This document shows positions 12,539-37,388 of a DNA stretch of 64,000 bases, piece by piece (position 1 is the first letter of the stretch; the number at the start of each line of letters is the position of its first letter). Made by a program: the position numbers and the translations under genes. The notes beneath the pieces are model-generated. The model was not told the origin of the DNA. It searched no databases and was given only the letters and a program-made list of their open reading frames with translations. This DNA comes from Thermostichus lividus PCC 6715 (lineage in GTDB: Bacteria > Cyanobacteriota > Cyanobacteriia > Thermosynechococcales > Thermosynechococcaceae): NCBI RefSeq assembly GCF_002754935.1, contig NZ_CP018092.1:372001-436000 (forward strand), read 5' to 3'.

Positions 12539-13228
12539 CTAGATTGCTTCCCAGTGGTAGCCAAACTGGGCGATCTCGTTGGCACAAACCGCTTCAATCC
12601 GCTGCCGCGCCGCCGCATTTAAGACCCGACTATAGTGATCGCGATTTTTACGATACCCAGCCTTAGCTCGCGGCAAGTTCAATGGCCGTGGCAAACCAAG
12701 TTTCTCTTGGATAATGGCCAAATCCTCATTTAGGCGTTCGTAGCGCCCCACAAAGTCCACCGCAATCTGATCCGCAATGGTGTAAATCCCCCAGTTAGAC
12801 AATAAGTCCGGTTGGACACTTTGCAGATACTCATCAATGGGAGGGCGCGGTTCGTTGGTGTTCCAGTAATAGCGACTGATGGCCTTATCAAAGGGGTTGC
12901 GCTCAAAACAAAACGTAAAGTACGTTTGCCAGATCTCTGAGCCAACCACCCGCTGAACGTGCTTTGCAGGGTCATGATTACTCAGGAGTCGCTTTGGACC
13001 ACGGTAAAACAAGGCCAGCCAATCTGAGGGAGTATAGTCTGACACGGGAGCGCGATAGTTACGAGGCCCCACGTAGCCTAATTGGCGACGAATCCGCTCA
13101 TCCTGCCAGCGAATGGGCGTGATGGTGTCCGTGGCCGTACAAAACTGCGAGAGGGCAATTTCTAGGCTCGTTCCCGCTGTTTTGCGAGTTTTTAGGAAGA
13201 TGAACTTGTAGGTGTGGTTAATAATCAA
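12539..13228 (-). CDS. Sulfotransferase-family protein
   Basis: 229 residues beginning with a strand and phosphosulfate-binding loop, FIFLKTRKTAGTSLE, the 5'-PSB motif of PAPS-dependent sulfotransferases (P-loop-like K.RK.AGTS). An Arg/Ser-rich stretch (FERNPFDKAISRYYWN) matches the second, 3'-phosphate-binding motif. No signal peptide. It lies 11 bp downstream of the NDP-sugar pyrophosphorylase gene and near the polysaccharide locus, so sulfation of a surface sugar is a reasonable inference, but the acceptor is unknown. Confidence 0.75.
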   Translation of the reverse strand: MIINHTYKFIFLKTRKTAGTSLEIALSQFCTATDTITPIRWQDERIRRQLGYVGPRNYRAPVSDYTPSDWLALFYRGPKRLLSNHDPAKHVQRVVGSEIWQTYFTFCFERNPFDKAISRYYWNTNEPRPPIDEYLQSVQPDLLSNWGIYTIADQIAVDFVGRYERLNEDLAIIQEKLGLPRPLNLPRAKAGYRKNRDHYSRVLNAAARQRIEAVCANEIAQFGYHWEAI

Positions 13229-13239
13229 TTCCCACCCCG

Positions 13240-14385
13240 CTAGGAGACAACTTCTTTGAGATTTAGGGGGCTAGGCAAAATCTCGGTTTGCCGAGAGTCC
13301 GTGATTAACCAATCGAGGGCGGCAGCTTTGAGGTCAATGGTGGTTCCCGTTTTATCCACACAGTAGCGACCAAAAACGAGCTTATCCACTAGGCGGACAT
13401 CCGAACCAAGGCGAGAGTACTCAAAGATGACACAGTTATCCACCACGGCACCACCACAAACGTGGCAATTCGGCCCAATCATCGTTGGCCCAATGATCGT
13501 CGCGCCATCCTCTATTTTCGTCATGCCGCCAATATAGACCGGTCCTTGAATCGTTACCCTATCCCAGTTAACCGCTACATTCAACCCCGTATAAATCCCA
13601 GGAAAGCGCTCATGCCCAGGAATAGACACATTGGTAATTGTACCGTTGAGCACACTGCGCACCGCTTGCCAATAGTCGGGAACCTTACCAATATCAATCC
13701 ACTCAAAGTCCATCGCCAAGCCATAGAAGGGTGCCCCCATGGCTACCAGTTTGGGAAATAGTTGACTGCCGATGTCAAACTCTTGATTCGAGGGCACGTA
13801 GTCTAGCACTTCAGGTTCAAAGATATAGATTCCTGTATTGATGGTGTTGCTCAGTGCCTCTTCAATACGGGGTTTTTCCTGAAAGGCCGTGATGCGATCG
13901 CTCTCGTCGGTTACAACAACACCATAGCTGGAGACATCATCCTGGGGAACTGTTTTCATAATGACGGTGGCGATCGCCCCTTTCTGGCGGTGCCACTGCA
14001 CGGCTGCCGTCAAATCTAGGTCAATGAGGGCATCACCGCACAACACAATAAACGTATCGTCAAAGAACGGGTTAAAATCCTGAATCCGTTTGATACCACC
14101 CGCCGAGCCAAGCGCCTTCCCCACTAGCTCACCATCTTGAATGTACCCCTCAAACGAGTAGGCAATATCAACACCAAAGCGCTGCCCATCCTGAAAGTAG
14201 TTTTCAATTTCGTGGGCCAGATGGCTGACGTTCACCATAATCTCGGTAAAACCGTGCTTGCGCAGCAGCTCCACCAAAAACTCCATCACGGGTTTCTGCA
14301 AAATTGGGATCATTGGCTTCGGAATCGTGTAGGTAATCGGGCGTACCCGGGTGCCTTTTCCGGCGGCCAAGATCATTGCTTTCAT
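13240..14385 (-). CDS. NDP-sugar pyrophosphorylase (mannose-1-phosphate guanylyltransferase-like)
   Basis: Nucleotidyltransferase of 381 residues that should activate a sugar-1-phosphate. The N-terminal domain has AMILAAGKGTRVRPIT and the KP signature IPKPMIPILQKPV, with LCGDALIDLDL as the metal-binding DxD-type site. After about residue 250 there is a left-handed beta-helix of hexapeptide repeats (ITNVSIPG, VTIQGPVYIGG, ATIIGPTMIGPNC). This short form lacks the C-terminal phosphomannomutase domain of the long cyanobacterial paralogues. The nucleotide and sugar are not fixed by sequence alone. Probably transcribed together with the sulfotransferase downstream. Confidence 0.82.
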   Translation of the reverse strand: MKAMILAAGKGTRVRPITYTIPKPMIPILQKPVMEFLVELLRKHGFTEIMVNVSHLAHEIENYFQDGQRFGVDIAYSFEGYIQDGELVGKALGSAGGIKRIQDFNPFFDDTFIVLCGDALIDLDLTAAVQWHRQKGAIATVIMKTVPQDDVSSYGVVVTDESDRITAFQEKPRIEEALSNTINTGIYIFEPEVLDYVPSNQEFDIGSQLFPKLVAMGAPFYGLAMDFEWIDIGKVPDYWQAVRSVLNGTITNVSIPGHERFPGIYTGLNVAVNWDRVTIQGPVYIGGMTKIEDGATIIGPTMIGPNCHVCGGAVVDNCVIFEYSRLGSDVRLVDKLVFGRYCVDKTGTTIDLKAAALDWLITDSRQTEILPSPLNLKEVVS

Positions 14386-20340: not shown

Positions 20341-20510
20341 CGGAAGCCTCTGTAATGGGGTGAACGACTGGGGAGATAAACACCTCTGGAGTAACGTAGG
20401 AAACTGCTATGCTTGAAGTGTTGTCGGTGAACCAGTCATTCTAAGCTGTGAGGCTAGAAGAATCCCCAAGAATCCCCTGCCTTTAGGCAGGGAGAGCATA
20501 TCAAGAATGC
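20341..20510 (+). pseudogene. tnpB 3' end and right-end remnant
   Basis: Residual 3' end of a second TnpB type. The frame reads AMLEVLSVNQSF followed by a stop, close to the usual C-terminal tail of canonical TnpB proteins (KLPVEASVVNQEF), then AVRLEES. It ends with GAATCCCC and the hairpin CCCTGCCTTTAGGCAGGG (20474-20491), the typical right end and guide-RNA 3' region of such elements. Everything upstream of about 20341 is missing. The remaining 20206-20340 is AT-rich and shows nothing I can name. The fragment abuts the truncated asnB. Confidence 0.55.
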
Positions 20511-20968
20511 CCCAGTACAGGGGCTTTTCGCGCACGCGGTCGCGCGCCAGCACCAAGGTGCGTGCTTTGCGGTCCCACAGAGCCAGCGCAAACATACCCA
20601 CCGCCTGCCTCCACCCTCCACGCCTCGATGGCCGCGAGCAGCGTTTCCGTGTCCGAATGCCCGCGCTAGGCGGGCGCAGCGCCCTGCGCGGCGAGCTGCT
20701 GGCGCAGCACCAAGTGGTTGTACACCTCGCCGTTGAAGGCGATGACGAGGCGGCCGCTGGCCGACACCATCGGCTAATGCCCAGCGGGCGAGAGGTTCAG
20801 AATCGTCAACCGACGGTGCCCCAGCGCCAAGCCGGCAACTGGCTCCACCCACACCCCTGCATCGTCCGGGCCGCGGTGGACTAGGGCGTCGGCCATGCGC
20901 TGGGCGATGGCGTGGGGTTCTTCGGCAAAGGAGCCGTAAGGTTGCCAGAAACCAGTGAGGCCGCACAT
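20500..20968 (-). pseudogene. asnB: Asparagine synthetase N-terminal fragment (GC-rich, inactivated)
   Basis: Begins MCGLTGFWQPYG (Cys2 nucleophile of class II amidotransferases) and continues LVHRGPDDAGVWVE and GHRRLTILNLSPAGH, then meets TAG where relatives have CAG (HQPMVSA). Later a second stop replaces Trp in APAWRGHSDTETLL, and a frameshift precedes VGMFALALWDRKART. It ends at REKPLYWG by fusion to an IS right end. The DNA is about 65% GC, unlike the other asnB copies at 30.4 and 31.9 kb, so this copy has a different origin, probably proteobacterial. Confidence 0.85.
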
Positions 20969-28093: not shown

Positions 28094-28230
28094 TTATTTC
28101 TCATAGCTGGTTTGACTCGTCTGCCTGTCGACACGTTGATGCCGATTCCTTGGGAAGACCTCATCGTAAGCTGGCCAGAAATCGGTATAAGGAACGGCAC
28201 ACTGTCGATAGCCAGCGGGTAAGGCATCCC
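28094..28230 (-). pseudogene. IS1-family transposase, 3' part (interrupted copy)
   Basis: Minus-strand sequence gives WDALPAGYRQCAVPYTDFW, then PAYDEVFPRNRHQRV and QTSQTSYEK before a stop. This is the C-terminal part of an IS1-type DDE transposase. Joined to the 5' part at 29889-30355 after removal of the element 28231-29888, the frame reads GAQEL-WDALPAGYRQCA without any gain or loss of bases. The last 40 or so residues after QT..T are missing. 28008-28093 upstream of TylF holds no gene. Confidence 0.82.
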
Positions 28231-28274
28231 TTGACTTCTCCCCTCCTTGAAAGAGAGGGGATTCCCAAAGGATA

Positions 28275-29564
28275 CTACGCAACGGGCTGAAGCCGCGTTG
28301 CTTCGCTTTTCCCTTGAGCTGTCACCCACAACTTAATACGGGTGGGGGCAGTCAAAGACCCCCTACCAACTCCGCTCAGACTCAATCCAAGCATCGTCGC
28401 TACTTTACGCAGGATGTTGGCAGCGCCATTACAATCCGCGTTGATGTACCAATTCTGAGCAGTCCTGAACAAGCCTCGCTTCGTCCGCTTCCCCGATGAC
28501 TTCCAGCTATCAGGTTTTTCACCGAATGTCGGCAAAAAGTCACCATCCACAAACGATGCTTGAGAGGTATACGACTCCTCAGTTTCAACAAACTCTATCC
28601 CGTACTGCTCCGCTAATTGAGCAATCCGCTCTTTCAATCTCGCAGTTGGGATCTGCACAAACTTCTGATTGGTCTTCTTGCCCAGGTTGGAACCGTCCTT
28701 TTGCCGCTGGTTCCAGCCAAATACAATCCGACCAATCCGGTTACGGGTGCAATGGTCAATCACAATCCTGGCCGCTTTGTTCACTGCATCACGTATCTGC
28801 CGATTGCGCTTCTCAGTGAGTTGTGCCAGTCGCTTTGACCAAAAGCCTTGAGGCTTACCTTCTTTCAGCTTGGCAATTTGCTTGTTGTACCAGCGGTTCA
28901 ACGATTTCAGGTGCAGTCCATCCACAATGAAGCTGGTTCCCACATTGCTGACGCAGGTGAGCCAGTTGTTTAATCCCGAATCGATGCCCAGCACCCGCAT
29001 CGGGTCTACATCAACCTGAACAGGTTTCAGCCGATAGACAAACTCAGCGTAGAAACACCCGTTGCGCGGCAGAATCCGCAGTTCCTTGATGTCCTCAAAT
29101 TTGAGATTGGAGGGCATGGGGACAGTAAACGAGTCAATCTGAAACCACACTTTCACTAACTGCCCCAGCGGAACCCGGATCATCCCATCAACCAACTTCA
29201 GCGCTTGTTTGGGATAGCTGACTACTGCCAACCCTCCCTTCTTGCGATAATTTGGCATCTTGGGTTTCTCTGCCAGTTCTCCACCTCGCCACAGTTTCAA
29301 CAATGCTCGGTAGGACTTAAACGACTCGTAGACCGAAATCAAGGTTTGCTGTGCAGCTTGGGAGTAAAGAGCTTGGAAGTGCTTACTGGTCTTGTATTCG
29401 TAACTCAGGCTATGCTTGCCAATCCACTGCCCGGTCTTAAAGTGCAGTTGACGAGCATAGTAGATGCCCTGATTGGTTAGCTTGTTTGCCTCAGAGCAGA
29501 CAAATTCCATCACCCCCTTAAGTTCGTTATTGGGGTTGAGCAAAACTTGCTGACATCCAAACAT
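28275..29564 (-). CDS. tnpB: TnpB-related protein without zinc ribbon
   Basis: 429 residues from the ATG at 29564 (MFGCQQVLL); a frame start at 29600 adds 12. RuvC-I is VLGIDSGLNNW (Asp) and the last RuvC Asp is in INADCNGAANIL. Canonical TnpB has a zinc ribbon with two CxxC pairs; here that segment reads ASFVDGDFLPTF...RGLFRTAQNW with no cysteines. The usual second acidic motif (..IEDL..) is replaced by IVFGWNQRQK, with VETEESYTSQ following. TnpB proteins are RNA-guided nucleases that help IS605 elements persist. This belongs to the variant group seen again at 62622. Intact frame. Confidence 0.88.
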   Translation of the reverse strand: MFGCQQVLLNPNNELKGVMEFVCSEANKLTNQGIYYARQLHFKTGQWIGKHSLSYEYKTSKHFQALYSQAAQQTLISVYESFKSYRALLKLWRGGELAEKPKMPNYRKKGGLAVVSYPKQALKLVDGMIRVPLGQLVKVWFQIDSFTVPMPSNLKFEDIKELRILPRNGCFYAEFVYRLKPVQVDVDPMRVLGIDSGLNNWLTCVSNVGTSFIVDGLHLKSLNRWYNKQIAKLKEGKPQGFWSKRLAQLTEKRNRQIRDAVNKAARIVIDHCTRNRIGRIVFGWNQRQKDGSNLGKKTNQKFVQIPTARLKERIAQLAEQYGIEFVETEESYTSQASFVDGDFLPTFGEKPDSWKSSGKRTKRGLFRTAQNWYINADCNGAANILRKVATMLGLSLSGVGRGSLTAPTRIKLWVTAQGKSEATRLQPVA

Positions 29565-29632
29565 GGTGAGTTTATGCAACAATTGACTACAGCGTAGCAC
29601 AGATAGCAGGTGAACTATGGACTACCAGAAAA

Positions 29633-29806
29633 GCCGCAGTGCATCGAATTAAGGGGCGAACTGCACAGTTCCTCAGACAGGAATTCCCTAATCCATTAAT
29701 GAAACTGCCGTCCATGTGGACATCCAGTTACTTTGTCTCAACGGCTGGCAATGTTAGCAGCGAAACAATTCAGCGCTACATTGAAGCTCAGGGCAAGAGT
29801 AATTGA
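29633..29806 (+). pseudogene. tnpA: tnpA 3' relic (IS200-type transposase)
   Basis: Plus-strand frame gives KAAVHRIKGRTAQFLRQEF, then SSYFVSTAGNVSSETIQRYI, EAQ and a stop at 29804-29806. The segment S.YFVSTAGN..SETIQRYIE.Q is the C-terminus of IS200-type TnpA, with the catalytic tyrosine in QRYI. The N-terminal half with the HUH motif is absent, so the element can move only with a transposase from elsewhere. Divergent from tnpB, the IS605 arrangement. Confidence 0.85.
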
Positions 29807-29888
29807 CCTTACTAGGGGCTAAAGCCCCCTGAGTTGGCTGTATCCCCTCGCTAAAGCGGAGGGGTTTTAGCCCGCCCACATCACTCCT

Positions 29889-30355
29889 ATAATTCCTGTG
29901 CTCCCTTACGGCTACGATCCTCCAAAAATACCCCCACCATTTCTCGTGTTTCACCTCTATTGCTAACCACATCTTGTTCCCTGTGTTGCCGAAAAATGAC
30001 CACATCTAGTGACACTGAACCGTCAACCGACCTGTTTCTCTAAACCGACACCTCAACTTGACCGGGCACTACCTCATATTTGGTGTTAACGTAATACTCG
30101 GGGTTAACGTAGTTTTGCAGCCAAGGCTCTGAAAACTCCCACGACTCTAGGGATACCAGCCAACGGAACCTTCTCCAATACTAGCGTGTCGATTACGGTG
30201 TTAGTCGTCTGATCAATACTCTTCTTCTGTGGGTCTTGGACAAACTGTTTCCCACACTCACGACACTTAAAGTTCTATTTGCCGTTGTGGGTTTTGCCAT
30301 TTTTGACTGCGTGAGTTGATTGACACGCAGGATACGACGGTAAAGCTATTGACAT
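29889..30355 (-). pseudogene. IS1-family transposase, 5' part (interrupted, frameshifted)
   Basis: Starts at ATG 30355: MSIALPSYPACQSTHAVKNG, then KTHNGK, a stop in place of Gln, and FKCRECGKQFVQDPQKK. This is the InsA-like zinc finger (CxxC...CxxCG). After VLEKVPLAGIPRVVG the frame shifts to EPWLQNYVN...TKYEVVPGQVEV, another stop follows, and later MWSFFGNTGNKMWLAIE and VFLEDRSRKGAQEL lead into the nested element. Clearly an inactive IS1-family DDE transposase of the cyanobacterial type. 30356-30452 is the leader of the next fragment; its last 50 bp match the leader of asnB at 31.8 kb. Confidence 0.8.
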
Positions 30356-30452
30356 CAAGCACCTAGGGTAATGTTGCCATAAATTCTAACTCAGCGTTGG
30401 TTTATCTGCTAAAGTCAGTAGTAACAAAATTATCAGAGGCAATGCTAAGCAG

Positions 30453-30824
30453 ATGTGCGGCCTTGTTGGGTTAATTAGCCTTGGTGAGTCTCTGGACCTG
30501 AGGTCAACGGTTCAAACGATGGTGGCAACTCTCTATCATCGCGGTCCTGATGACGAGGGAACGTGGATCGATGAATCGGCCGGAATTGCCTTGGGGCACC
30601 GTTGTCTGGCCATTTTAGATCTCTCGCCAGCAGGGCATCAGCCCATGGTCTCCGCCTGTAGCCGCTATTTATACTTAATTCCCATTCAACTCTATGTTTT
30701 TGGAAATTTACCGTATCTTTTCTTCCCAAAGCAACATCAGCTATTTTTTCGTTGGCTCTTTCTAGTGATCGGGTACAGTTTTGTGGTACTATGGCTGTGG
30801 CCTCAATTTACAGATCAGGCTTGA
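30453..30824 (+). pseudogene. Chimeric remnant: asnB 5' end fused to polymerase gene 3' end
   Basis: One open frame of 123 codons from two genes. Codons 1-71 (MCGLVGLISLGESLDLRS ... HQPMVSAC) are almost identical in DNA to the start of asnB at 31862. From about 30665 the sequence (YLIPIQLYVFGNLPYLFFPK ... SFVVLWLWPQF) is almost identical to 34703-34857 in the polymerase-like gene. The two parents lie in the same order downstream (asnB, then polymerase), so a duplicated asnB-polymerase unit lost its middle. Parents share only CGCT and a few bases at the joint. Unlikely to be functional. Confidence 0.88.
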
Positions 30825-30845
30825 ATAGAAGGTATGAATAAAGGT

Positions 30846-31694
30846 ATGTCTGAGCCTAAGAATTTACACAAAAATATAGATCCTGAAGTCGTTCGTGGTT
30901 TTGGTGATGAGTGGTCTAGATTCACTTACATAAACTTGAACGAGAAAGTATTAGAGCAAATGTTTTCGGATTACTTTTCTTTACTTGACTGGTCAAGATT
31001 ACCACCTAAAGCTGTGTGTGCAGATTTAGGCTGTGGTAGTGGTCGTTGGTCTAAATTTGTAGCTCAACGGGTTGGCCATCTCATTCTAGTTGATGCTAGT
31101 CCAGAAGCTTTAGAGGTTGCAAAAATAAACCTCAAGAACTTTACAAATGTTAGCTTTATTAACTCTTCTATTGAAGACTTACCTATAGAAAATGAATCTC
31201 TAGATTTTGCATTTTGTCTTGGTGTTCTTCACCGTATGCCTAATCCAGCAGCAGGTATTGATAGTATCGCTGCTAAGCTTAAAAAAGGTGCTCCATGTTT
31301 AATTTATGTTTACTACGCATTTGATAATCGTTGCTTTATTTATCAAATTTTATGGGGGTGTAGTGACTGGATACGTCGCTTAGTATCTCGCTTACCTTAT
31401 ATTTTGCGCTTTTTCATTAGTCAAATTATAAGTATATTTATCTATTGGCCATTGGCAAGAATGGCATTGCTTTTAGATTACTTGCGCTTACTACCTGATT
31501 CTTGGCCATTAGCGTATTACCGTGATAAACCATTTTATGTAATGAGAAATGATGCCCTAGATCGATTTGAAACAAAATTAGAGCATCGCTTTAGTCGATT
31601 TGAAATCAATGAAATGCTAACTAATGCTGGTTTTAATAATATTCGCTTTTCGGATCGTCCACCTTATTGGTGTACACTGGCCATCAAGAGTTAG
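30846..31694 (+). CDS. Class I SAM-dependent methyltransferase
   Basis: 282 residues from ATG 30846 (MSEPKNL); an ATG at 30834 is possible. Motif I is VCADLGCGSGRWSKF, followed by LILVDASPEALEVAK and LDFAFCLGVLHRMPNP. A hydrophobic stretch in the second half (FFISQIISIFIYWPLARMAL) suggests membrane contact, perhaps with a lipid-linked substrate. This is like methyltransferases of O-antigen clusters. AT-rich (about 37%), no HIP1, in the right-hand part of the foreign block between the chimeric remnant and asnB. Its substrate is unknown. Confidence 0.85.
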   Translation: MSEPKNLHKNIDPEVVRGFGDEWSRFTYINLNEKVLEQMFSDYFSLLDWSRLPPKAVCADLGCGSGRWSKFVAQRVGHLILVDASPEALEVAKINLKNFTNVSFINSSIEDLPIENESLDFAFCLGVLHRMPNPAAGIDSIAAKLKKGAPCLIYVYYAFDNRCFIYQILWGCSDWIRRLVSRLPYILRFFISQIISIFIYWPLARMALLLDYLRLLPDSWPLAYYRDKPFYVMRNDALDRFETKLEHRFSRFEINEMLTNAGFNNIRFSDRPPYWCTLAIKS

Positions 31695-31861
31695 TCTATC
31701 TGATGTGCCTAGGGTAACTATGTAGTTAAGATTGCAGCCACTGAGATTAACCAGCAAACTCTTGGTAAATCGAATAATCAATCGGCTTATAGCTACTATC
31801 TTAATCTTCATTCATCTGCTAGAGTTAGTAGTAACTAATTATCAGAGGCAATGTTAAGCAG

Positions 31862-33826
31862 ATGTGTGGTCTTGTTGGGTTAATGAGCCTTGGTGAGTCT
31901 CTGGACTTGAGGTCAACGATTCAAACGATGGTGGCAACTCTCTATCATCGTGGTCCCGACGATGAGGGAACGTGGATCGATGAATCGGCCGGAATTGCCT
32001 TGGGGCACCGTCGTCTGGCCATTTTAGATCTCTCGCCAGCAGGGCATCAGCCCATGGTCTCTGCCTGTGGCCGCTATGTCTTGGTCTTTAATGGTGAAAT
32101 TTATAACCATTTGGATCTGCGACAGTTGCTGACAAGCACTGGTGCTGCACCTGCTTGGCGGGGTCACTCGGATACAGAAACCCTCTTAGCAGCATTTGCT
32201 TACTGGGGCATTGAAGCCACCCTAAAGCGCACGGTGGGGATGTTTGCTCTTGCTCTGTGGGATCGTTCAGAACAGACATTAACCTTAGCGCGCGATCGCA
32301 TTGGGGAAAAGCCCCTTTACTACGGCTGGGTCAATAATGCGTTTGTGTTTGCCTCTGAACTAAAAGCATTGCGAGCTTGCCCTAATTTTCAAAATTCAAT
32401 TAATCGCCAAGCACTCACATTATATTTACGTTATAACTACGTTCCCTCACCTTACAGCATTTACGAGCACATTTGGAAGCTACCTGCGGGCACTTACCTT
32501 CAGTTACCTACTAACGCCTTGGTAAAAGGCAGCCAAGGAGAACCGCAAGCCTACTGGTCGTTACAAACGGCTGTTGAGCAGGGTTTAGCTGAGCCATTTC
32601 AAGGAACAGAGCAAGAAGCGGCAGGTGAGCTGGAGCGACTGCTACGGCAAAGTTTGCAAGGCCAACTCTTAGCCGATGTTCCTCTTGGCGCATTTTTGTC
32701 TGGGGGGGTAGACTCTTCTACAGTTGTGGCCTTGATGCAAAGCCAATCTGCTCAACCGGTCAAGACTTTTACCATTGGTTTTTACGAAGATCAGTATAAC
32801 GAAGCACAGTATGCTAAAGCGGTAGCTACCCATCTAGGCACAGATCACACAGAATACTACCTGACAGGTCAAGATGCTCGGGATGTCATCCCCAAGTTAC
32901 CAACCCTTTATGATGAGCCTTTTGCTGATTCATCGCAAATTCCCACCTTTTTAGTCTCAATGATTGCTCGCCAGCACGTAACTGTGGCACTTTCCGGTGA
33001 TGGTGGGGACGAACTATTTGGGGGCTACACGCGGTATTTCTTGGCTCCAAGTATTTGGCAAAAAATACAATTACTCCCAGCACCCATACGTACAATGTTA
33101 GCAACTGCACTGCGAGTTCTACCTCCAAGGCAATGGGATCAATTGTTGGGCGGTATCAACCGCTTCTTACCCAAGCACTTAAGATATACAACTATTGGCG
33201 ATAGAATCAGTAAACTAGCTAAGCTTTGTGAGCTAAGATCGCAAGATAGTGTTTATCTTTCCTTTTTATCGCATTTTAATCCACCTTCAAAGATAGTCAT
33301 TGATGGCAAGGAGCCAACCTCACTACCCATTGAACCCCCCAGTTGGTTGTCTGGCTTGCCGTTCGAGTCATACATGATGATACTAGATGTGCTCACGTAT
33401 CTTCCTGATGATATTTTGGCTAAGGTAGATCGGGCAGCAATGGGGGTTAGCTTAGAAACCCGCATTCCTCTGTTAGATCACCGCATTGTTGAATTTGCCT
33501 GTGCTGTGCCGCTATCGATGAAAATCAAGCAGCAAACAGGAAAACACATTCTGCGTCATATCCTTTATCAGCATGTTCCTAAAGAACTCATTGAACGGCC
33601 AAAGATGGGATTTCGTGTTCCTATTGCCCAGTGGCTACGCCATGAACTACGAGAGTGGGTCGAGGACTTATTGAACCCTACACGACTCAAACAAGAGGGT
33701 TTTTTGTATCCTGAATCTATTTGGCAGTACTGGCAAGAACATCGTCAAGGACATCGCAACTGGGCTTTTCCGCTTTGGGATATTTTAATGTTTCAGGCAT
33801 GGCTAGAAAACAATCGTTCAGTGTAA
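31862..33826 (+). CDS. asnB: Asparagine synthetase (glutamine-hydrolysing) in polysaccharide locus
   Basis: 654 residues. Class II amidotransferase with Cys2 (MCGLVG), LYHRGPDDEG and FNGEIYNHLDLR, then the synthetase domain with the pyrophosphate loop LSGGVDSSTVV and ALSGDGGDELFGGYTRY. Ends with FRVPIAQWLRHELREW. Genes of this type are common in O-antigen/exopolysaccharide clusters and may amidate a uronic acid; free asparagine synthesis is the alternative. Here the dehydrogenase and UDP-uronate epimerase downstream make uronic-acid amidation plausible. It contains the first HIP1 octamer after the foreign block (about 32293). Followed 5 bp later by the polymerase-like gene. Confidence 0.92.
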   Translation: MCGLVGLMSLGESLDLRSTIQTMVATLYHRGPDDEGTWIDESAGIALGHRRLAILDLSPAGHQPMVSACGRYVLVFNGEIYNHLDLRQLLTSTGAAPAWRGHSDTETLLAAFAYWGIEATLKRTVGMFALALWDRSEQTLTLARDRIGEKPLYYGWVNNAFVFASELKALRACPNFQNSINRQALTLYLRYNYVPSPYSIYEHIWKLPAGTYLQLPTNALVKGSQGEPQAYWSLQTAVEQGLAEPFQGTEQEAAGELERLLRQSLQGQLLADVPLGAFLSGGVDSSTVVALMQSQSAQPVKTFTIGFYEDQYNEAQYAKAVATHLGTDHTEYYLTGQDARDVIPKLPTLYDEPFADSSQIPTFLVSMIARQHVTVALSGDGGDELFGGYTRYFLAPSIWQKIQLLPAPIRTMLATALRVLPPRQWDQLLGGINRFLPKHLRYTTIGDRISKLAKLCELRSQDSVYLSFLSHFNPPSKIVIDGKEPTSLPIEPPSWLSGLPFESYMMILDVLTYLPDDILAKVDRAAMGVSLETRIPLLDHRIVEFACAVPLSMKIKQQTGKHILRHILYQHVPKELIERPKMGFRVPIAQWLRHELREWVEDLLNPTRLKQEGFLYPESIWQYWQEHRQGHRNWAFPLWDILMFQAWLENNRSV

Positions 33827-33830
33827 TGAC

Positions 33831-34895
33831 TTGCTTATGTTTCCGTATTTTCTAGTATTTGCCCTAACCAGCTTCCCGATCATTATCGAAGTACCCCAGT
33901 GGTATAAAGTCTTTCTTTTTTGTGTTTATGTACTATTTATTGGTTTACGTTTTGAAGTAGGTGGAGATTGGACAGGATATCTTTATATTTTTGAGAGTGT
34001 TAAATTCACACCTTGGTTTGGATATGAAACTACATCTTATGATCTGGGCTACTATTGGATCAATAAGATTGCTATTGCCTTAAATCAAGATATATATTTT
34101 GTTAATTTTTGTGTCGCCATTATTTTTGTTTCTTGTCTTTTCAATTTTTGCAATAAATTAAAAAATCCATACCTAGGTCTAAGCGTTGCATTTCCTTATT
34201 TGACTACAGTTGTAGCAATGGGATACACACGCCAAGCTGCAGCCATTGGTTTTGAACTGTTAGCTATCCTTGCACTTACTCAAAATAAGCGATTAAGATT
34301 TTTCGTCTATTTCTTTTTGGCCTTGTTATTTCATAAAACTGTAATATTTTTACTTTTAGTTCCACTTTTAATAACAATGATAAAATCAATAAAAGAAAAG
34401 AAAGTAATTAATATTACTTACCTAGTGATATTGACTTTTGTGCTGTTAGTCGGCACAACAATAATTATAGAATCAACTCCTAGATTTGCTAGCAGCTACA
34501 TAGAAGGTCAAATGTCATCCTCAGGAGCGTTAATTAGATTAACAATGAACCTATTGCCTGCGATAATCTTTCTTCTAGAATATTATAGAGGTAAAAATTT
34601 CTTCAAACATTCACCAAAGGTTTATTTGGCATTATCTTGGTTAGTTATTTTCTCATTCTTGCTTCTGCTAACAGGCTCAACAACTACTGCCGATCGCCTC
34701 GCTTTATACTTAATTCCTATTCAACTCTATGTCTTTGGAAATTTACCGTATCTTTTCTTCCCAAAGCAACGTCAGCTATTTTTTCGTTGGCTCTTTCTAG
34801 TGATTGGGTACAGTTTTGTGGTACTATGGGTGTGGCTTCAATTTGCAGATCACGCTTTTGCGTGGCTTCCTTACCGAATGTATCCTTTTATTTAA
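33831..34895 (+). CDS. EpsG/Wzy-like polysaccharide polymerase (multi-pass membrane protein)
   Basis: 354 residues with about ten hydrophobic segments. Motifs of the EpsG family are GLRFEVGGDWTGYLYIFE (R.. .G.DW..Y) near residue 38 and a Gly-Tyr-Thr-Arg-Gln stretch (AMGYTRQAAAIG) near 132. Role in the family: polymerises undecaprenyl-linked repeat units at the outer face of the inner membrane. The start is taken at the first codon after asnB, but MFPYFLVF two codons later (33837) is equally likely. AT-rich as polymerases usually are. Its 3' part was copied into the chimeric remnant at 30.66 kb. The next gene starts 1 bp after its stop. Confidence 0.85.
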   Translation: MLMFPYFLVFALTSFPIIIEVPQWYKVFLFCVYVLFIGLRFEVGGDWTGYLYIFESVKFTPWFGYETTSYDLGYYWINKIAIALNQDIYFVNFCVAIIFVSCLFNFCNKLKNPYLGLSVAFPYLTTVVAMGYTRQAAAIGFELLAILALTQNKRLRFFVYFFLALLFHKTVIFLLLVPLLITMIKSIKEKKVINITYLVILTFVLLVGTTIIIESTPRFASSYIEGQMSSSGALIRLTMNLLPAIIFLLEYYRGKNFFKHSPKVYLALSWLVIFSFLLLLTGSTTTADRLALYLIPIQLYVFGNLPYLFFPKQRQLFFRWLFLVIGYSFVVLWVWLQFADHAFAWLPYRMYPFI

Positions 34896-36088: not shown

Positions 36089-37388
36089 ATGGCTGATTGT
36101 TCTATGCCTTTTGACTCTTTAGGAAAAACACAAATTGCTGTTGTTGGGTTGGGTTACGTTGGCTTACCATTGGCCGTTGAATTCGGCAAGCCTTACCATA
36201 CTATTGGTTATGATGTCAATGCGCAGCGCATTGCGGAGTTAACTCAAGGCAGTGACCAAACTGGAGAAGTTAGTAAGGCAGATTTACAAGCCTCTACACT
36301 ACTGACCTACACGACCAGTTTAGACGCGCTAAAAACCTGCAACGTCTTTATTATTGCTGTACCGACCCCGATTGATCGCTATAAAATCCCTGACTTAACA
36401 CCTCTGAAGAAAGCCTCTGCCAGTATTGGCCGAGTGTTATCTGCTAACTGTATCGTCATTTATGAATCTACGGTTTATCCGGGGGTTACTGAAGAAGTCT
36501 GTGTCCCGATTCTGGAGCAGGAATCAGGATTGAGGTTTAATCAGGATTTTTTTGTGGGCTATAGTCCGGAGCGTATTAATCCGGGTGATCAAGAGCACCG
36601 TTTAACCACGATTAACAAAGGTCACGTCAGGTTCCACCCCTGAAGTTGCCGACTTCGTCGATCATCTGTATGCGTCAATTATTCCTGCCGGAACTTACAA
36701 AACTAGCTCAATCAAGGTTGCAGAAGCTGCAAAAGTGATTGAAAATATTAAGCGAGACATCAATATTGCTTTTGTGAATGAACTGGCACTCATTTTTAAT
36801 TTGTTGGAGCTTGATACCGAGGAAGTGTTAGCTGCAGCCAGCACTAAATGGAATTTTCTACCCTTTCGGCCAAGATTAGTGGGAGGGCACTGTATTGGTG
36901 TTGATCCCTATTACCTGACCTATAAGGCGATCGCCCACAACTACCATCCTGAGCTGATTTTGGCTGGTCGTCGTATCAATGATAATATGGGCTTTTATGT
37001 AGCGGCACAGTTCCTGAAATTATTAGCTAAAAAGGGAATTAGTCTTTCAGAAGCCCGTATTTTAGTCATGGGCTTAACCTTTAAGGAAAACTGTCCAGAT
37101 CTACGGAACACTCGTGTTGTTGATATTATTGCTGAACTCCAAAGTTATGGTCTGCACGTTGATGTTTATGATCCATGGGTTGATGCCATACAAGCCGAAA
37201 TAGAATACGGAATTCAGCCTATTCAGCATCTGCAGCCCAATATGTGGGATGGCATTGTGATTGCTGTAGCTCATCAACAATTTCGCGATATGGGGTCTGC
37301 TGGAATTCGTCAACTGCTTAAAGCAGAAGGTGTTCTCTATGATGTGAAGTGGATTTTGGCGAAGGACGATGTCGATGGTCGGCTGTAG
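36089..37388 (+). pseudogene. Nucleotide-sugar 6-dehydrogenase (TviB/WbpO type), single-base frameshift
   Basis: Oxidises a UDP-hexose(NAc) to the uronic acid. The first part has the Rossmann loop QIAVVGLGYVGLPLAVEFGK, YDVNAQRI and YSPERINPGD, ending [15 protein letters not shown] and a stop at 36643. In the other frame the protein continues [20 protein letters not shown] ... [17 protein letters not shown] ... [16 protein letters not shown] (catalytic Cys) to 37388. One extra G at 36620-36621 explains the break; without it the product has the normal length of about 432. Either a recent mutation or a read error. The pathway continues with the epimerase 16 bp downstream. Confidence 0.9.

Follow-up and report, generated by a model that had tools for sequence, protein, structure and literature searches.

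An in-frame asnB-epsG chimera beside an exopolysaccharide operon of Thermostichus lividus PCC 6715, probably the remnant of a duplicated segment

We describe an open reading frame of Thermostichus lividus PCC 6715 that joins the 5' end of an asparagine synthase gene (asnB) to the 3' end of epsG, a presumed polysaccharide polymerase gene, both of which are present intact downstream. We consider the stretch from 30401 to 30822 to be an inert relic, left in a variable locus after part of an exopolysaccharide operon had been duplicated, and give this reading a probability of roughly two in three. Duplication followed by a large internal deletion is the simplest account of the arrangement. Positions refer to the window, by which we mean the whole stretch of 64,000 nucleotides analysed.

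Structure of the chimera and the genes beside it

Both parts of the chimera keep the reading frame of their parents and align with the intact genes at a constant offset, +1409 for the asnB part and +4035 for the epsG part (Table 1). A whole-genome search matched the asnB part, including the tail upstream of it, at E 9.5e-112 and the epsG part at E 4.3e-65, which excludes a chance match. The in-frame chimera of asnB 5' end and polymerase 3' end described by the first-pass annotation is thus real. The extent of 155 nt given there for the polymerase part (34703-34857) also stands, whereas the asnB part, put at 210 bases, comprises 216 nt. The inner junction had been placed at a few bases of homology; in the present-day sequence a single base (30668) is common to the asnB and epsG sides, which is, by reasoning rather than computation, no more than chance often gives.

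Table 1. Coordinates of the chimera, its parent genes and the neighbouring features in the window.
Feature	Position	Strand	Remarks
IS1-family remnant, C-terminal part	28097..28282	-	far side of the IS605-type element; 15 plasmid records
IS605-type (OrfB) element within the IS1 remnant	28230..29893	-	OrfB_IS605, E 1.1e-17
Degenerate IS1-family transposase remnant, N-terminal part	29894..30385	-	stops and frame breaks; right edge approximate, near end of copy homology
Copy 1 of pre-asnB sequence, relic of glycosyltransferase gene 3' end	30401..30452	+	88% to 31811-31861 over 52 columns
Chimeric ORF, 123 aa	30453..30824	+	first 72 asnB codons joined in frame to 51 epsG codons from near the epsG 3' end
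asnB 5' segment, 216 nt	30453..30668	+	matches 31862-32077; 12 differences (8 synonymous, 4 nonsynonymous)
epsG 3' segment, 155 nt	30668..30822	+	matches 34703-34857; 8 differences over 153 nt of whole codons (3 synonymous, 5 nonsynonymous)
SAM methyltransferase gene, 286 aa	30834..31694	+	between the two copies; Pfam Methyltransf_31, E 1.7e-18
Copy 2, glycosyltransferase gene tail directly before intact asnB	31811..31861	+	88% to copy 1
Intact asnB, glutamine-hydrolysing asparagine synthase family, 654 aa	31862..33826	+	Pfam PF00733, E 2.6e-116
Intact epsG, EpsG family, presumed polysaccharide polymerase, 354 aa from TTG	33831..34895	+	Pfam PF14897, E 7.4e-51

With 72 of 654 AsnB codons and 51 of 354 EpsG codons retained, most functional parts of the parents are gone. 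On the right the homology ends 38 nt short of the epsG end, the last 12 epsG codons before the stop are absent, and a TGA stop was created at the edge of the homology. Pfam recovered positions 1-41 of 130 of the amidotransferase domain GATase_6 in the chimera and no PF00733, where an AsnB would carry PF00733 and the full amidotransferase domain; PF14897 was not matched at E 0.001, so that the chimera does not belong to the EpsG family either. Its frame has no internal stop and no frameshift, and a disabled frame is usual but not required for a pseudogene. As expected of a gene remnant, it clearly derives from genes that are intact elsewhere in the same genome.

The intact asnB reached 463.8 bits with TIGR01536 (cut-off 267.1) and 569.4 bits with TIGR03108, which is under the cut-off of 816.9. 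For epsG, an alternative ATG start at 33837 suits the relatives in the EpsG alignment better. Elsewhere in the window (20509-20968, minus strand) we observed a second asnB remnant with two in-frame TAG codons, a frame break and its 3' side cut off, which matches the first 155 residues of the window's AsnB protein at 61% (121 aa) and 71% (34 aa).

The two copies are separated by 988 bp (30823-31810) that include the methyltransferase gene, on which the first-pass annotation was silent. Because of this gene, a plain tandem copy of the asnB-polymerase pair, as had been proposed, does not fit; either the duplicated unit included the methyltransferase gene or the second copy entered otherwise. Duplication and deletion themselves are in keeping with the similar divergence of the two parts (12/216 in asnB, 8/153 in epsG).

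We infer the following order of events. A stretch with glycosyltransferase tail, asnB and epsG at its end would have come to exist twice in an ancestor, with tandem duplication as the putative source of the second copy; the duplicated unit probably had the methyltransferase gene in front and would then measure about 4,035 bp, matching 30823-34857. The first copy would have lost 2,626 bp (4035 minus 1409, if it had today's layout) by illegitimate deletion at about 1 nt of homology, an event that happened to join the asnB start in frame to the epsG end. The left side of this copy would have been cut off or replaced close to the now-dead IS1, and the chimera would have drifted since, while the second copy was kept functional. 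The tandem step is without its expected left remnant, since no trace of a first-copy methyltransferase gene was detected elsewhere in the window at E 1.

The same structure might be the product of a single event, if template switching during replication copied just the two short pieces, so that a full second copy never existed. The inner junction with its 1 nt of homology would suit such an event, as would the similar divergence of the pieces and their parental order and orientation. Several switches would be needed, however, all of them happening to keep order and orientation, and duplication with deletion is the commoner route; we regard template switching as improbable.

The stretch before asnB and the IS elements at the left edge

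A duplicated leader before asnB had been reported at about 30405 and 31813. The duplication is confirmed, with the two copies starting at 30401 and 31811; its nature as a leader is not, because the stretch resembles the end of a glycosyltransferase gene. Read from 31804, the intact tail gives IFIHLLELVVTNYQRQC-stop and resembles the end of the homologous glycosyltransferase gene in one relative from the genus (relatives are labelled G001 and so on), G010, which ends FIHLLELLIANQNKLC-stop. In G004 and G007 a glycosyltransferase gene (PF13692, E 8.8e-17 and 5e-17) ends five bases before asnB; G001 has a different gene there. By local alignment with a shuffle test, three of ten tail comparisons were significant, namely intact tail with G004, intact tail with G010 and chimera tail with G004 (0/500 shuffles each); the last had a score of 32 that was never reached in 500 shuffles. 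The other seven of the ten were not significant, including the chimera tail against G005, G007, G009 and G010. From these few relatives, we interpret the sequence preceding each of the two asnB starts as the tail of a lost glycosyltransferase gene. No convincing remnants of that gene past the short tail were found within the window.

A regulatory leader was considered and rejected on three grounds: the stretch is, on the evidence of few relatives, a glycosyltransferase gene tail, it matches no Rfam family at gathering score, and no promoter-like site was found on the coding strand of the tail upstream of the chimera. Owing to the first and the last of these, a transcript from the duplicated leader, which the first-pass annotation had suggested looking for, is unsupported here. 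The window's only Rfam match at gathering score is a glutamine riboswitch (RF01739, 54796-54875, minus strand, 54.2 bits, E 4e-09).

BLAST homology between the copies ends at 30401, and a degenerate IS1 lies just to the left. Its naming rests on matches in plasmid records. The N-terminal piece of 56 aa matched 20 of these, and among the ten matches listed four carry the annotation 'IS1 family transposase' (E 4e-13 at best); for the C-terminal part six of the ten matches listed were annotated as IS1 transposase (best E 3e-11). Both parts match NZ_CP071726.1 on the same strand, at 12869-13021 and 13222-13368. Judged by its sequence, the IS1 is dead and is split by an IS605-type element. The left edge of the latter is approximate, as it overlaps in position with the last 53 nt of the IS1 ORF. 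The 11 loci compared include five at which the IS605-type element is full-length (98.0-98.7%) and two at which it is in two pieces. Pfam found nothing over the cut-offs in four short IS pieces.

One end of the IS605-type element has at least 32 further matches of 77-82 nt in the genome (40 of 69 candidates scored). In all four of the short relatives examined, both ends lie close together and the gene is missing.

Divergence of the copies and alternative readings

Alignment of the two regions, proposed as a check by the first-pass annotation, gave 20 differences in 369 positions, 17 of them transitions, with both parts colinear with the intact genes. An assembly artefact would have to account for this divergence. 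The region does contain repeated elements; the differences between the copies, however, follow a coding-like pattern, and the genome of PCC 6715 (Synechococcus/Thermosynechococcus lividus), present as one contig of 2,659,739 bases, was built from about 400-fold PacBio and 520-fold Illumina coverage according to its sequencing report (PMC9120777). Misassembly, named by the first-pass annotation as the finding that would overturn its reading, is therefore very unlikely, to the point of being negligible. Table 1 of a comparative study lists 196 pseudogenes for PCC 6715 (coding density 80.1%) as against 33 for TA-1 and 37 for CL-1 (PMC9403480).

We polarised the differences by majority, with four relatives as reference for asnB and seven for epsG. 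Seven nonsynonymous and six synonymous changes fell on the chimera branch and one and five on the intact branch, with one ambiguous site. This contrast is suggestive of a drifting remnant beside a constrained gene, though it is not significant (Fisher p 0.16, ambiguous site counted on both branches). When the ambiguous site is charged to the chimera (8/14 nonsynonymous), the ratio agrees with neutral drift (P 0.08-0.25). If all 20 differences are treated as neutral drift, nine nonsynonymous ones are too few (P 0.0015-0.024), which indicates that part of the divergence arose under constraint, either along the intact branch or at a time when the deletion had not yet occurred.

In a different history, the two copies would be alleles: a slightly different asnB-epsG from another strain would have recombined into the locus beside the resident copy, and one of the two would later have been reduced to the chimera. 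Possible horizontal transfer or recombination of exopolysaccharide-linked asnB has been inferred for the genus (PMC9403480). With eight synonymous to four nonsynonymous differences, the asnB part looks more constrained than a copy that was dead from the start, and in raw identity the pre-asnB tails are less alike (88%) than the coding parts (about 95%). A second copy from another strain would, moreover, look much like an in-situ duplication. The synonymous changes, however, split six to five between the branches, which is equally expected from duplication in situ, and we judge an allelic origin possible but unlikely.

One point against an inert remnant is the reading frame, which continues without a stop through the junction, though one join in three would fuse the two frames. 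In simulations the frame stayed open in 53-57% of cases after 14 random changes and in 41-44% after 20; with about half of the simulated frames remaining open, an open frame is no evidence of use. It has nevertheless to be asked whether the chimera was kept because it is translated, either to yield a small fusion protein or, as a leader, to bring ribosomes to the methyltransferase start. The arrangement would allow this, as the in-frame ORF ends at 30824 and the next start follows about 10 nt downstream, at 30834. Against it stand the openness expected by chance, the changes on the chimera branch, which look relaxed, if not significantly so, and the absence of a promoter-like site on the coding strand of the upstream tail. 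In addition, four residues identical in the compared relatives are replaced: C51 and S70 of the chimera stand in place of residues shared by five asnB compared, and L336P and H341Q alter residues shared by seven aligned EpsG. The arginine that is cysteine in the chimera would correspond to a glutamine-binding arginine of E. coli AsnB. Conservation in other species of the genus, expected of a functional fusion, was seen in 0 of 10 other genus genomes. We regard retention through translation as very improbable. Likewise, it is highly improbable that duplication and deletion made a new in-frame peptide of 123 aa, or a translated leader, by which the downstream methyltransferase gene is now coupled to the exopolysaccharide operon as a small regulatory novelty.

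Relatives in the genus and likeness to known systems

An epsG homologue is present in eight of 11 genomes of the genus, the window's own included. Downstream of epsG, the seven other loci encode a glycosyltransferase, then a nucleotide-sugar dehydrogenase, an epimerase and a Wzc-type protein, with the first two of these genes split in G002. Directly before epsG lies asnB in the window, G001, G004 and G007, and not in G002, G003, G005 and G010. In G009 an asnB lies about 970 bp from the end of a contig, and the search recovered no epsG from this genome. The gene preceding asnB differs among genomes. Since the downstream genes are conserved and the gene before asnB varies, the chimera lies at the variable edge of a conserved operon.

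In the window, the nucleotide-sugar dehydrogenase of the same operon is in two ORFs (36089-36643 and 36735-37388; 36089-37388 overall, plus strand), and the intervening sequence still reads on in another frame, as after a frameshift. Of the seven relatives compared, six carry the gene as a single open frame, and G002 has it split. The break in the window may mean that the operon is impaired, or it may be a sequencing error.

The order chimera, methyltransferase, tail, asnB and epsG in the window draws on the same parts as two of these relatives. G005 has a broken asnB, a methyltransferase fragment (45%) and a glycosyltransferase, and G010 a glycosyltransferase followed by a methyltransferase (61% homologue of the window's gene). 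Together with the order glycosyltransferase-asnB-epsG in G004 and G007, the G005 arrangement supports the reading of the chimera as a remnant. As the asnB of G005 is also broken, asnB decay recurs in the genus. The G005 gene (L079 12078-14514, plus strand) is a different asnB, in pieces, with the methyltransferase fragment directly after it.

A partial epsG match of the chimera type was found in none of the ten other genus genomes, of which G006 and G008 are fragmented and without asnB and epsG, G009 is fragmented and without epsG, and G002 has a split epsG, which is a different thing; the window's own was the only one among the 11. A DNA search of 29 genomes, including its own, gave only separate asnB or epsG pieces elsewhere. 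Searching the genome contigs with a single EpsG protein gave no match, and with seven aligned EpsG three distant matches (31-37% identity).

In a limited literature search we found no report that combines duplication with a chimeric asparagine synthase in a cyanobacterial exopolysaccharide context. For exopolysaccharide-linked asnB of the genus, possible horizontal transfer or recombination has been discussed, with the mechanism left unsettled there (PMC9403480), and the chimera bears on this question of how such genes recombine or move. On its own it is an ordinary scar; it is also a readable record of turnover in an exopolysaccharide locus, whose asnB edge, near IS elements, is where genes are shuffled and duplicated and fall into decay. 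The intact genes of the window are the cluster of asnB, epsG, glycosyltransferase, sugar dehydrogenase, epimerase and Wzc known from the genus, whereas the chimera occurs only in the window's own genome of the 11 searched.

Chimeric genes formed by duplication followed by deletion are a known kind, and so are gene remnants in variable exopolysaccharide and capsule loci. The chimera resembles the former in that the 5' part of one gene is joined to the 3' part of its neighbour, with the order of the parents kept and minimal homology at the junction; it differs in that a methyltransferase gene separates the copies and in that a selected function is without support here. With the remnants of exopolysaccharide and capsule loci it shares truncated locus genes beside IS debris and a position at the variable edge of a conserved operon, and it differs from them in that a single open frame spans pieces of two adjacent genes.
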